A stretch of DNA of 64,000 nucleotides, from assembly GCF_025699125.1 (NCBI RefSeq), contig NZ_JAILWC010000001.1, forward strand, positions 62,001 through 126,000, read 5' to 3'. This stretch comes from Nitrosopumilus sp. Lineage in GTDB: Archaea; Thermoproteota; Nitrososphaeria; Nitrososphaerales; Nitrosopumilaceae. The position numbers and the translations under genes are program-made. Position 1 is the first letter of the stretch. Every line of letters begins with the position of its first letter. Below the pieces are notes generated by a model. The model had not been told where the DNA came from and did no database searches. It saw nothing but the letters and a program-made list of their open reading frames with translations. Shown one piece after another: positions 50,402 to 55,010 of this stretch.

Positions 50402-50731
50402 TCATACTTGACAACTACAATTTTTTTGTTTTAGAATTTGGATTTGTTTTAAAGTACTGTCCACCAAAACATCTTGTTTTGATTTACCTGTCGCATTTTT
50501 TTTATCAAGAGGACTTTGGTGATTATATCCTCTGCGCTTCATCTCTTTAACTAATTGTTCGTGTCTGAAATATAATGCTCCAAGTTTTCCTATCCACCTG
50601 ATCGTTTCAGGGTGTTTTGAATATCCCTTTTTGTTCTCAGTTATTACCGCCCATATTGCATGAATCTCACGATGTTCTCCTAATAGATGATTTTTGCACA
50701 ATTTGACAGGAGAAATATCCCAAATTCTCAT
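50402..50731 (-). CDS. Pyrimidine dimer DNA glycosylase-like protein (T4 endonuclease V family)
   Basis: A 109-residue protein from ATG 50731. MRIWDISPVKLCKNHLLGEHREIHAIW and GYSKHPETIRWIGKLGALYFRHE, then RRGYNHQSPL, match the Pyr_excise family. Its members cut the glycosylic bond at UV-induced pyrimidine dimers and nick the strand. The conserved N-terminal region and the Glu/His/Arg positions (GEHRE, HPET, RHE) are kept. The start overlaps the zinc-ribbon gene by 4 bases. An upstream in-frame Met at 50785 lies inside that gene and is rejected. Confidence 0.8.
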   Translation of the reverse strand: MRIWDISPVKLCKNHLLGEHREIHAIWAVITENKKGYSKHPETIRWIGKLGALYFRHEQLVKEMKRRGYNHQSPLDKKNATGKSKQDVLVDSTLKQIQILKQKNCSCQV

Positions 50732-50913
50732 CTGGCCTTTTTTCCTCTGGCTTTTGTTCTCAAAACTGCTTTGCAACAAATACATCTTGTATCTTCAATT
50801 AGCAAGAATAACCCACAAAATGTGCATCGCTTGTGCCCAATCTCGTATCTGATTCTATTTGGAACCGGTTTTGCTTTATGCATTTGACAGATTCCTCTAC
50901 ATGTTCTACCCAT
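50728..50913 (-). CDS. Thaumarchaeal mini zinc-ribbon protein (GIC/GHKRC family), copy 3
   Basis: A 61-residue protein: CRGICQMHKAKPVP, then RYEIGHKRCTFCGLF, CICCKAVLRTKARGKK. It is translationally coupled (ATGA) to the pyrimidine-dimer glycosylase behind it. This is the only family copy here with an enzyme partner and suggests a role near DNA repair. A TTACCACTAG element lies 61 bases upstream of its ATG. Confidence 0.75.
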   Translation of the reverse strand: MGRTCRGICQMHKAKPVPNRIRYEIGHKRCTFCGLFLLIEDTRCICCKAVLRTKARGKKAR

Positions 50914-50973: not shown

Positions 50974-50983
50974 CTAGTGGTAA
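50974..50983 (-). promoter_or_regulatory. TTACCACTAG element upstream of the zinc-ribbon/glycosylase operon
   Basis: On the minus strand the bases read TTACCACTAG, followed by AATAAAAAAG, a TATA-like stretch. The same 10-mer occurs at 51951 and 54014. Confidence 0.6.
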
Positions 50984-50987
50984 AATT

Positions 50988-51830
50988 CTATATCTTTCTG
51001 AGAATCTTAGGTAATTCTTCTAATCCGCAATCTGGAATGATGTTTCCTTCAAATTTAGGAATTTTTTTAGAATTGAATGCAAAGCCTCCAATTAATATTG
51101 GGATATCTTTATGATCCTTAATTTTTCTAACGAGTCTTTGTCCTGCTGCAAGATTGTCTTCTAAAGTAATTGAAACTAATACTGCATCTGGCTTATTATT
51201 GTCAATAAAACTAAGAATTGACTCTGTTGGAATTGGTGTTCTTATATTGTATACTTTGAATCCTTTGATTGAGAGATACGTTTCTAACACATCACATCCT
51301 AAATGATGTTCTTCCCCCAGTGGAACACAAATGAGGATTTTTTTCTTATTGCCTGTACCTGACACTTGATCCATTATTATTTTCACTAATGTTTGTGCTA
51401 CATTACTTGAAACATGTTCTGTTGCAATGCTGATTTTGTTATTGGCCCAATCATCTCCAATTTTATACATTACTGGTTTTAGGATTTTATCAAAAAAACT
51501 TGTTGTATTAAATAACTTAGCATATTCCTCATAAATTGTTACGGCATCATGAATATTGCCTTCTGTTAATTTTTTGTACAATTGTTGTTTTGATTTGTTT
51601 GTGGCATCTTCTCTTTTTTTGATGTCTTTTGGATTGAATGACGCTAAAACAGCTAATATTTTGGAATTATTTCTATAGTCTACTGGTATGTCATCTTTTA
51701 CAACTTCGGACGCTTTTCCAAGATATTTTACTATCTCTTGCTTGGATGTACTCTTTTTTGAATCCCACACGCTTTTGACCAAGTAAAGATATTGATCTGA
51801 CTTTACTTTTTTTGCTCTTATGTAGACCAT
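50988..51830 (-). CDS. CarH-like cobalamin-binding regulator, atypical N-terminus
   Basis: A 280-residue protein. Residues 80-155 are a helical B12 cap with Trp128, nine residues, then Glu138-His139: exactly the W-x9-EH signature of CarH/LitR photoreceptors. Residues 163-280 are a B12-binding Rossmann domain with Glu173-x-His175-x2-Gly178. The N-terminal 45 residues (YLYLVKSVWDSKKSTSK, KQEIVKYLGKA) are not MerR but resemble the head of IS1634-type transposases, a possible DNA-binding part. The residue after Trp is Ala, not the light-state His of Thermus CarH. B12-dependent light sensing is inferred. Confidence 0.75.
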   Translation of the reverse strand: MVYIRAKKVKSDQYLYLVKSVWDSKKSTSKQEIVKYLGKASEVVKDDIPVDYRNNSKILAVLASFNPKDIKKREDATNKSKQQLYKKLTEGNIHDAVTIYEEYAKLFNTTSFFDKILKPVMYKIGDDWANNKISIATEHVSSNVAQTLVKIIMDQVSGTGNKKKILICVPLGEEHHLGCDVLETYLSIKGFKVYNIRTPIPTESILSFIDNNKPDAVLVSITLEDNLAAGQRLVRKIKDHKDIPILIGGFAFNSKKIPKFEGNIIPDCGLEELPKILRKI

Positions 51831-51950
51831 GCTTTTTTCTCATATTTTTGTTATTTAACTAATGCCAACCGCATATCATAGTGCTAAAATTTCGTTAATT
51901 TTATGATTTAGGTGTGGTTTATTCTAAACATTCTTCAGAATATGCCATAA

Positions 51951-51979
51951 TTACCACTAGTATTTTTAATTATCACTAG
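51951..51979 (+). promoter_or_regulatory. Two CACTAG elements ahead of the epimerase gene
   Basis: TTACCACTAG at 51951-51960 and ATCACTAG ending at 51979 are spaced 19 bases, about two helical turns. The second touches the TATA-like TTTAAATAAT (51980-51989). They lie in the divergent region between the CarH-like gene and the epimerase. Confidence 0.65.
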
Positions 51980-52008: not shown

Positions 52009-53388
52009 ATGGGGCAAATTCTTTCAAATATTCCTATTTCTCAGTCACATCCTTTTTCGATTTTAGTTACTGGTGCTACTGGTTTTATTGGTTCTAGATT
52101 GGTTTCTGTGTTGGCATCATCAGGGTATACCATAAAAGGTCTTACTAGAAAAAAACTTGCTGATACTAAAAATGTAAAGTACGTTCAAGCTGATGTTTTT
52201 GATCTTGATCAATTAAAACATGCCATGCAGGGAATTGACACTGCATATTATCTACTTCATTCAATGGAAGGAAGTAAATCTGAATGGCAAGAGTTTGCAT
52301 CAAGAGAAAGAATTCAAGCTCAAAATTTTCTTAATGCTGCAACTGCTGCTGGCGTAAAGAGAATTATCTATTTGGGAGGATTAGTTAATGATAGTTTAGA
52401 ATTATCTCCACACATGCGCAGTCGTAAAGAAGTTGGAGAAATTCTTGCTTCTGGTAATATCCCTGTGACTGAATTGCGTGCATCCATAATCATTGGTGCA
52501 AAAGGAGGATCTTATGCTATGTTACGTTATCTCGTAGAGCGTTTACGTATAATGATATGTCCTTCTTGGGTAAAGTCCTTGGCACAACCAATTGCAGTTG
52601 ATGATGTAGTATGTTATTTAGCTGAATGTCTTACACAATCTAAAACCATTGGAAAAATATTTGAAATTGGTGGACCTGAAAAAATAACTTATGAGCAACT
52701 AATGAGAGTTTATTCTGCATATCTGAACAAAAATTTGTTTATTCTACAAATTCCTTTTTTGACAACCAGGCTGTCGTCGTATTGGGTAGATCTTATCACT
52801 CCTGTAAAAGCCTCTCTTGCAAGACCGCTGATTGATAGTCTAGTACATGATACTGTCGTAACTGATGATTCGATTACAAAAATTATCCCCCTGCGTTTGA
52901 AATCTATTCGCGAATCAATTGATATTGCAACCAAAGAAATGAAGATGTCTCCGCCTGAAACTGAATTAAAAGAAGAAAAAACTGGATTTAAAATTAATCA
53001 AAAACTCATTCAAATCTCTCTTTTAGCCTTGGCTGTTATTGGAACATCATATTATTGGCTAGATAATCGACCTGAAATTTATCAGCCAATGTGGCTACTT
53101 GGATCACTAATTTGGTATGCTGTCATTGTTTTGTCAATTATCGGCATTCGTAATAAAACTAGATTAGGTTATCTTATGGCAGGTGTTTTATCGTGGTTCA
53201 CTTTGGTGTTTTGGTTATTTGATAATTATTATGTTGTATTTCAAACTTCACTGATTGCAAGTCAGCCAAATGATTTGATGACAATTAGAAATTTCATAGG
53301 GATATTTGCTGCAGTAATTACTGTGATAGCATCTCATAATCTGTTTCATAAAGTCTTTGATTATCAAAGCAAAGGCAAACCTATTTGA
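52009..53388 (+). CDS. NAD(P)-binding epimerase/reductase with C-terminal membrane domain
   Basis: A 459-residue extended SDR-like protein. The nucleotide motif TGATGFIGS is at about 21-29. YLLHSMEGSKSEW and YLGGL follow, with a typical NAD(P)H-binding atypical-SDR layout to about 310. Four predicted membrane helices occupy 330-450. Bacterial relatives with this SDR type occur in LitR/CarH-linked light-inducible clusters. The substrate is unknown. It is divergent from the CarH-like gene. Confidence 0.75.
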   Translation: MGQILSNIPISQSHPFSILVTGATGFIGSRLVSVLASSGYTIKGLTRKKLADTKNVKYVQADVFDLDQLKHAMQGIDTAYYLLHSMEGSKSEWQEFASRERIQAQNFLNAATAAGVKRIIYLGGLVNDSLELSPHMRSRKEVGEILASGNIPVTELRASIIIGAKGGSYAMLRYLVERLRIMICPSWVKSLAQPIAVDDVVCYLAECLTQSKTIGKIFEIGGPEKITYEQLMRVYSAYLNKNLFILQIPFLTTRLSSYWVDLITPVKASLARPLIDSLVHDTVVTDDSITKIIPLRLKSIRESIDIATKEMKMSPPETELKEEKTGFKINQKLIQISLLALAVIGTSYYWLDNRPEIYQPMWLLGSLIWYAVIVLSIIGIRNKTRLGYLMAGVLSWFTLVFWLFDNYYVVFQTSLIASQPNDLMTIRNFIGIFAAVITVIASHNLFHKVFDYQSKGKPI

Positions 53389-53425: not shown

Positions 53426-53962
53426 TCACTTTTTCATTAAAACATCAAATAGATTATCTTGATGAGGTTCTACATATAGCAGAAAATAAGTTTGACTGGC
53501 AAGGTATGTGTTATTAAATCTAAAAATCATTGGATTTATTCTAGCAAGAATATCTCCTATTGCAATCTTTTTTTCTTGAAATTGTATTAGGTGTTCAAAG
53601 AACTGTTCTTTTTCTGATTGTGTGAAATCTTTAGAAAAATAACCAAAAATATGCATTAGAACATTGCTGTGTGTTTTAGTTGTAGGTTCTTTCTCAAATG
53701 CTTTTCTCAAATGCTTTTCATACTCTGTTAAAATTTCTGAAAATTGAATTTTTTTGTTACTTGCAACAATGTTGCCTAAAATTTTTAATTCATTTTGATC
53801 ATGTGCCATTATCATGTATTTATTCATGGCTTGAAACAAAATCAAATTTTTTATTTTGTTTGAAGTCTTTACATTTTCAAATCTCTCAATAACATAATCC
53901 CTGATTTGTTTTTCTGATACTTTTTGTTCTTTTGTATTGAGAGTTTCTTGATTTTTATCCAC
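53426..53962 (-). CDS. YbgA-like protein (DUF1722)
   Basis: A 178-residue protein matching DUF1722: YMIMAHDQNELKILGNIVA, then THSNVLMHIFGYFSKDF and NNTYLASQTYFLLYVEP. In E. coli the ybgA gene lies directly before the photolyase gene phr, and the domain is frequent in light-inducible clusters. Its biochemical role is unknown. It is divergent from the secreted protein gene, with CACTAG elements between, and convergent with the epimerase. Confidence 0.8.
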   Translation of the reverse strand: MDKNQETLNTKEQKVSEKQIRDYVIERFENVKTSNKIKNLILFQAMNKYMIMAHDQNELKILGNIVASNKKIQFSEILTEYEKHLRKAFEKEPTTKTHSNVLMHIFGYFSKDFTQSEKEQFFEHLIQFQEKKIAIGDILARINPMIFRFNNTYLASQTYFLLYVEPHQDNLFDVLMKK

Positions 53963-54013: not shown

Positions 54014-54080
54014 TTACCACTAGATTTTTTCTATCTCATCTATTTGGTATTTTTAGCACTAGAATATTATTTAGCACTAG
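54014..54080 (+). promoter_or_regulatory. Three CACTAG elements ahead of the secreted-protein gene
   Basis: TTACCACTAG ends at 54023, AGCACTAG at 54062 and AGCACTAG at 54080. The last two are spaced 18 bases and the final one abuts the TATA-like CTTATATGTA. The same region lies upstream of the DUF1722 gene on the other strand. Confidence 0.65.
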
Positions 54081-54110: not shown

Positions 54111-55010
54111 ATGAAAACCACAATAACTGCAATCGCAGCGATTCTACTGGTTACATCAGCAACATCTTTTGCTTATGCGGAAGTACCATCCTGGGTTAAG
54201 AACAACGCAGGTTGGTGGGCTGATGGCACTGTCTCAGATACTGAATTTTTAACAGGAATAGAGTTTTTGATCAAAGATGGAATCATTGCAGTACCTCCAA
54301 CAAATGTTTCTTCTGAAAAATCAGATGGTGTTCCAGCTTGGGTTAAGAACAACGCAGGTTGGTGGGCTGAAGGAATCATTTCTGATGATGAATTTGTAAA
54401 TGGTATTCAACATTTAATGATGACTGGATTGATTTCGGTTGTTAATAATGAAGAACCACAACAAATTACTTCTGAATCACAAAACAATGATTCTAAACTA
54501 GCAGAACTTGAAGCAGAACTAGAAAAGTGCTCTGAAATTGTTAAATCTTACAAAAGAATTGATTGCCAAAAACCAATTGAAAAAGCAATAATGTTATACA
54601 AATATCAAATGAATGCTGAGAAATTCATCGTTGGGCCAATTACATACTATTGGTTTGGTATAAATTCTGAAGGAAATGGATTTGAGATTAGTCCAACTGG
54701 ACAACCAATACTTTCAATTCGTATGCTAGCTGAGAATACAAGTTCTGAAATTGTTGCACTAAATTGCACTAGTCCACAAATATGTGCATATGATGTTTGG
54801 GATGGTTCTAAGGCCTTCAAATATTCTGGCATGGATTTTACCAGTGGACAAATTGCACTAAATCCAAATGATTCGAGAGAATTCAATATTCTCTTTGGAC
54901 CAAACATTGGATATGGTGGAACTGAGTTTGAATATGATTCTTCAAAGAATTATGAATTTAGAATCAATGAGAACTTTGGAAGTGCGACCGTCCAATTAAA
55001 CTTGGAATAG
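54111..55010 (+). CDS. Secreted protein with two WVKNNAGWW modules
   Basis: A 299-residue protein. Signal peptide 1-23 ends SFAYA-EV. Two modules follow: PSWVKNNAGWWADGTVSD and PAWVKNNAGWWAEGIISD, each then with an EF-x-x-GI-x-x-L segment. A short coiled coil (SKLAELEAELEKC) and a C-terminal beta domain (180-299) complete it. Exported, function unknown. Its promoter has three CACTAG elements, making it a candidate member of the CarH-like regulon. Confidence 0.75.
   Translation: MKTTITAIAAILLVTSATSFAYAEVPSWVKNNAGWWADGTVSDTEFLTGIEFLIKDGIIAVPPTNVSSEKSDGVPAWVKNNAGWWAEGIISDDEFVNGIQHLMMTGLISVVNNEEPQQITSESQNNDSKLAELEAELEKCSEIVKSYKRIDCQKPIEKAIMLYKYQMNAEKFIVGPITYYWFGINSEGNGFEISPTGQPILSIRMLAENTSSEIVALNCTSPQICAYDVWDGSKAFKYSGMDFTSGQIALNPNDSREFNILFGPNIGYGGTEFEYDSSKNYEFRINENFGSATVQLNLE

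Follow-up and report, generated by a model that had tools for sequence, protein, structure and literature searches.

Gene cluster and distribution of the putative regulator

The window, i.e. the whole stretch of DNA analysed here (64,000 nucleotides), contains a putative B12-dependent regulator gene, whose open reading frame of 280 amino acids lies exactly at 50988..51830, and a group of genes around it. The features are given below in window positions; neighbour counts were taken over 56 loci with long flanks.

50402..50785, minus strand: pyrimidine-dimer DNA glycosylase gene (PF03013, 6.9e-28), found in 4 of 56 loci
50988..51830, minus strand: gene of the putative CarH-like B12-dependent regulator, 280 aa
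50991..51353, minus strand: Rossmann B12-binding domain, residues 160-280 (Pfam and predicted fold)
51297..51314, minus strand: motif E173-x-H175-x2-G178 with the expected lower axial His ligand
51363..51623, minus strand: four-helix bundle, residues 70-156, B12-binding_2 (Pfam and predicted fold)
51414..51449, minus strand: Wx9EH adenosyl-capping motif, W128-H139 (W128-x9-E138-H139), as defined in PMC8156234
51711..51830, minus strand: N-terminal module, residues 1-40, predicted three-stranded beta-sheet, net charge +7, putative DNA-binding domain
51852..51858, minus strand: TATA-like box TTAAATA, directly past the second repeat of the regulator-gene operator and about 20 bp from the start codon
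51860..51887, minus strand: operator of the regulator gene, TTAGCACTATGATATGCGGTTGGCATTA, 19-bp direct repeat
51951..51978, plus strand: operator of the divergent SDR gene, TTACCACTAGTATTTTTAATTATCACTA
52009..53388, plus strand: SDR/NmrA-family oxidoreductase gene, the divergent neighbour, in 48 of 56 loci
53426..53962, minus strand: DUF1722 gene (YbgA/RudS C-terminal domain), in 43 of 56 loci
54053..54079, plus strand: operator of the secreted-protein gene, TTAGCACTAGAATATTATTTAGCACTA, 18-bp period
54111..55010, plus strand: gene of a predicted secreted protein with VPSWVKNNAGWWADG repeats, behind the operator; homologs behind the operator in 42 loci

The same full-length architecture was observed in tens of species at 30-85% identity, which is far beyond chance, and it is kept across Nitrosopumilaceae and two sister families. 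Among the 300 genomes of the phylum that were scanned, full-length relatives occur only in the order to which the window belongs (families f1, f2 and f3). The nearest named relatives are from Nitrosopumilus (80-85% identity), others being from Nitrosarchaeum, Nitrosotenuis and Nitrosopelagicus; judging from these relatives, the DNA belongs to a marine ammonia-oxidising archaeon or a close relation of one. Cobalamin biosynthesis was acquired by ancestral ammonia-oxidising archaea, AOA (PMC7554672). A literature search did not find a paper on an archaeal CarH-like photoreceptor, most subscription journals being outside its scope.

The predicted B12 sensor half

The earlier note, made from the sequence alone, had assigned this protein a CarH-type sensor module, and this assignment is borne out by both motifs that define CarH homologs, by Pfam, by the CarH model and by the predicted fold. 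The two motifs are ExHx2Gx41SxV/Tx22-27GG and Wx9EH (PMC8156234). The former is complete with exact spacing (residues 173-249); the latter is kept in all examined relatives except the paralog L035. Pfam places B12-binding_2 at residues 82-152 (5e-10) and B12-binding at residues 165-251 (4.5e-12). Among the NCBIfam models, CarH ranks first (6.8e-15), with a score far short of the curated cut-off and a match to residues 78-229 only; the models of corrinoid proteins are weaker (TIGR02370, 4.1e-9).

In the AlphaFold2 model (48 sequences; mean pLDDT 89), the predicted fold is closest to the photocobilins 8j2w and 8j2y (Z 26.3, rmsd 1.7, 204 aligned residues), followed by the B12 domain of CtMerR from Chloracidobacterium thermophilum (8jbs/8jbt; Z 22.7) and by TtCarH (Z about 20.5 over ~195 residues). 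MetH, with Z 20.3, ties with CarH; thus, the fold by itself cannot tell a sensor from an enzyme module. Photoreception is not proven from the fold alone, and the feature that separates the two, as read from the predicted protein, is the Wx9EH cap.

The residue after Trp128 is Ala129, which occupies the position of His132 of TtCarH. Across 82 partly overlapping family rows with an intact Wx9EH, His never occurs at this position, which is A in 46, S in 13, E in 10, K in 4, and another residue in the rest. In TtCarH, His132 gives rise to the bis-His light state, and the H132A mutant is largely still tetrameric in the light (PMC10442372), which puts in question whether release can occur without this residue. 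CtMerR counters this, as it has Arg at this position and does monomerise in the light (PMC11796333). Other light-responsive proteins without His132 are the photocobilins SasPcob (Gln) and AbDPcob (Tyr) (PMC10979010, PMC11796333), and the light state of SasPcob is ligated by water or hydroxide (PMC10979010). Thus, while the earlier note was right about Ala in place of His, this substitution is not unusual, as the position is occupied by Arg, Gln or Tyr in proven B12 photoreceptors.

The N-terminal module

The second half of the earlier claim was that the N-terminus is not of the MerR type. This holds: Pfam finds no MerR domain in the regulator, the CarH model begins only at residue 78, and the predicted model has three beta-strands instead (residues 2-9, 12-23 and 28-39). 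The module ranks with the best conserved regions of the family: in a set of 16 members, whose overall identity goes down to 30%, residues Y3, R5, K7, Y14, Y16, L17, V18, W22, Q31, Y36, L37 and G38 do not vary. Residues 1-45 are conserved but unmatched in Pfam, and the matches of the N-terminus to Pfam and NCBIfam models are at chance level only. The fold searches yielded nothing meaningful (best Foldseek E 0.61; best VIA-align Z 3.9, to a small ribosomal protein), and a profile search of PDB sequences gave nothing. As the N-terminal model has no significant match among solved structures, its DNA binding is inferred. An AP2/Arm-type fold, which had been guessed for the N-terminus, was unsupported by both fold and profile searches.

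A profile of residues 1-68 was run over the 300 genomes. Outside the family, it picks up two heads of the transposase type, both from one distant genome (1.1e-7 and 5e-5). The best of them, ORF L228:1688-2230, is followed by an ORF with DDE_Tnp_1 (2.5e-17). A homologous head of ~40 residues appears to be shared with DDE transposases that have the YLG head (IS4/IS1634-like); these, however, have a DDE catalytic domain, which Pfam and NCBIfam searches do not find in the regulator, NF033559 being unmatched in this genome. The suggestion that residues 1-45 resemble an IS1634-type head is therefore supported as regards a transposase head, but weak as regards IS1634 specifically, since the canonical IS1634 transposase L233 scores only a marginal 4.6 bits.

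The profile also matches the heads of Fic proteins (5e-4 and 2e-3; one such protein matches Fic at 4e-24). The Fic-domain proteins L230:1937-2851 and L231:2156-3094 (both on the minus strand) open with the same head, MVxIKKKrIKGqxYYYLxxS...YLG, which indicates that the module has been reused across several protein types.

The operator

Nearly every promoter of the homologs contains a pair of direct repeats, TTRGCACTAK and then, 19 bp on, TTRGCAYTAGTT, ending at the TATA box. For the 78 named loci and the window, the spacing is 19 bp in 65 cases, 20 bp in 12 and 18 bp in 2, and the pair is mostly situated at -57/-38 from the start codon. Near-invariant columns extend across both repeats and the adjoining TATA box, and the information content falls beyond it. 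The operator is retained even by the most distant relatives (L036-L038), with about 30% protein identity.

The same pair is also found ahead of the genes for SDR, the secreted protein, the FAD oxidase and others, in most cases 29-31 bp from the start codon. A strict scan of the genome of the window yields only three convincing pairs, all of them in this cluster, and allowing one mismatch adds chance-like matches only. Within the 64-kb window, 8 of the 10 near-matches to the half-site fall within 3.1 kb at the cluster (binomial 1.3e-9). A single half-site is not enriched across the window, so that only clustering and pairing are informative. The operator pair, its linkage to the gene and the presence of the same pair ahead of neighbouring genes are new here.

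Co-occurrence of the gene, the operator and photolyase

Among 121 genomes of the family, the strict operator is present in 49 of the 54 genomes with the gene and in 2 of the 67 without it (Fisher test, 1.6e-25); if only more complete genomes are considered, these numbers are 43 of 47 and 1 of 41, respectively. A loose pattern had many chance matches in gene-negative genomes, from which the stricter pattern separated the real ones, and the backward-read control of the scan gave 2 matches versus 113 real ones. One of the five gene-positive genomes without the strict operator has a relaxed pair (L033). A conserved direct-repeat operator linked to the presence of the gene supports a regulatory role, as far as can be predicted from sequence.

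Photolyase (PF03441) shows the same tendency, being found in 24 of the 54 gene-positive and 2 of the 67 gene-negative genomes (Fisher test, 3e-8; neither test is corrected for shared ancestry). The two gene-negative genomes with photolyase, G325 and G368, are exactly those gene-negative genomes that have operators, which suggests that their regulator genes were lost or remained unassembled; G368 is 87% complete and consists of 360 contigs. By coordinates, 18 of the 24 photolyases are at most about 10 kb from a family gene (in G192, from the degenerate paralog), and at L063 photolyase starts 2 bp downstream of the regulator gene. The genome of the window has no photolyase, but a pyrimidine-dimer glycosylase gene is situated next to the regulator gene.

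Neighbouring genes and the putative regulon

Besides the SDR and DUF1722 genes, the 56 loci contain genes for the secreted WVKNN protein (44), a FAD amine-oxidase-like protein (34), TFB (36) and photolyase (11). The glycosylase gene is shared by only four loci, so that its membership in the regulon is uncertain. In Pseudomonas, the regions of class II LitR include genes for photolyase, a short-chain dehydrogenase and a FAD-dependent oxidoreductase (PMC9758184), and RudS, which bears DUF1722, is located in LitR light operons (PMC11417400). In its predicted gene content (SDR, DUF1722, FAD oxidoreductase, photolyase), the archaeal cluster mirrors this set. The genes switched on through the repeated DNA site appear to be those protecting against sun damage, light control being inferred.

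Proposed mechanism and alternatives

The protein is probably an AdoCbl-dependent transcriptional repressor and light sensor, although light sensing, DNA binding and repression are all inferred. We also lean, but only slightly, towards a more specific reading, in which it is a B12 photoreceptor repressor of AOA that combines a CarH-type sensor with a domesticated transposase head and controls TATA promoters of a photoprotection regulon. The idea of an independently assembled B12 regulator, put forward in the earlier note, gains support from the sensor motifs, the transposase-related beta module and the gene-linked operator, with DNA binding and photochemistry remaining inferences.

In the dark, AdoCbl would sit between the Rossmann domain and the four-helix bundle; His175 would lie beneath the cobalt, and Trp128, Glu138 and His139 would cap the adenosyl group. 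The bound AdoCbl would drive assembly via the sensor domains, setting at least two N-terminal beta modules onto the two direct repeats 19 bp apart. Once occupied, the repeats would block TBP/TFB, as they adjoin the BRE/TATA region or overlap it. Upon illumination, the Co-C bond would be cleaved and the assembly would break without a bis-His lock, there being no His132 equivalent. This would free the promoters of the regulator's own gene, the SDR gene and the secreted-protein gene, and, in relatives, also those of photolyase and the FAD oxidoreductase. The motifs, the predicted fold, the operator and its position, and the co-occurrence of gene, operator and photolyase are observed; that AdoCbl is bound and photolysed, that the beta module contacts DNA and that the effect is repression, not activation, is inferred. 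Weighing against the proposal are the five gene-positive genomes without the strict operator, the lineage L062/L129 with no operator ahead of the gene itself, and the lack of photolyase in the genome of the window.

The same promoters could be controlled by a regulator of B12 status or oxidative stress that senses the AdoCbl level, oxygen or cobalt redox state and not light. The oxygen dependence of CarH chemistry (PMC10442372) favours such sensing, the SDR, FAD oxidoreductase and nitroreductase neighbours are compatible with redox stress, and some homologs come from dark habitats, e.g. deep-water bins according to record titles. However, photolyase hardly occurs outside the genomes that have the system, a pyrimidine-dimer glycosylase adjoins the gene in the window, and Wx9EH is a photoreceptor signature; we hence consider non-light sensing unlikely. 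If light is sensed, the bound protein could still be an activator that recruits or stabilises TBP/TFB. A TFB gene is often near, and archaeal activators can also use a site just upstream of BRE/TATA. Here, however, the second repeat touches the TATA box without a spacer and the site is present on the regulator's own promoter, and the known CarH proteins are dark repressors; activation thus seems rather improbable. Two repeats that reach the TATA box, also on the own promoter, argue for a repressor excluding TBP/TFB, as CarH excludes RNA polymerase.

Since DNA binding by the beta module is only inferred, the repeats (TTAGCACTAG) might be bound by another, co-inherited regulator, the B12 protein acting by protein contact or otherwise; the operators do persist in G325 and G368, where the regulator gene was not found. 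Against this, the co-occurrence of gene and operator is almost complete, G368 is an incomplete and fragmented assembly, and the operator overlaps the gene's own promoter even in L036-L038, so that we give this possibility little weight. An ordinary corrinoid carrier of a methyltransferase with a chance N-terminal extension, named in the earlier note as a refuting case, is strongly disfavoured and can hardly be maintained: TIGR02370 does match, but the CarH model is better, the protein has Wx9EH, its conservation is highest in the N-terminus, and none of the annotated flanking genes was identified as a methyltransferase gene.

Comparison with known systems

With CarH and class I LitR (Thermus, Myxococcus, Bacillus megaterium) the archaeal system shares Wx9EH, the full B12 motif, and the helix bundle with the Rossmann fold; a direct-repeat operator over the promoter in an autoregulation-like layout (there are no binding data for the archaeal operator); and the LitR-like regulon genes photolyase, SDR, FAD oxidoreductase and DUF1722. 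It differs in having the beta module instead of the MerR winged helix, a TATA promoter, no His132, and repeats of another sequence 19 bp apart, whereas the CarH operator consists of tandem 11-bp repeats nAnnTnnACAn. The bis-His light state is a feature of TtCarH and is not universal. As proposed here, the archaeal protein functions like CarH, yet the MerR domain, a defining feature of CarH/LitR, is missing from it. CtMerR, a light-dissociating tetramer (PMC11796333), shares the sensor fold and the absence of His132, but it is bacterial and has a MerR DNA-binding domain. The photocobilins carry a C-terminal bilin-binding globin-like domain, some of them with enzyme outputs, whereas the archaeal protein lacks such a domain and ends at residue 280, past the Rossmann domain.

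Few chemolithoautotrophs of the ocean are as abundant as ammonia-oxidising archaea, and the cluster provides definite candidates for a sensor, an operator and target genes with which their light response can be tested. If the proposed reading is true, B12 photoreception would extend to archaea, a CarH sensor would be seen to operate through another kind of DNA-binding module at archaeal promoters, a natural family lacking the His132 lock would become available, and a DNA-binding domain new to the role of a B12 light-sensor output would be added.

Additional copies and operator variants

A second family member, L035 (G192:C1:795500-796264), has lost Wx9EH (GNLGNSKKIDLGTQTT) but retains the N-terminal module and has photolyase near; possibly, it is a B12-independent CarA-like partner. 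Second copies are also present in G323, G339 and G348. In the near-complete genome G325, operators at G325:C89:83900 and 85440 (L232) occur together with photolyase, the regulator gene being undetected.

In the window, a lone half-site TTACCACTAG at 50974-50983 (minus strand) lies upstream of a small zinc-ribbon ORF (50728-50913) and the pyrimidine-dimer glycosylase gene, its second repeat being degenerate. Between the DUF1722 gene and the secreted-protein operator there is a third half-site TTACCACTAG, at 54014-54023 (plus strand), which precedes that operator by 39 bp, or roughly two periods. At L062 and L129 (genus g6), the gene directly follows the zinc-ribbon ORF and its own operator is lost, while other operators in the genome remain. 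In Nitrosopelagicus (L135-L149), the regulator's own pair is shifted: its repeats, spaced by 20 bp, are found around the TATA region at about -44. A further pair is located ahead of a downstream uncharacterised gene of 199 aa.
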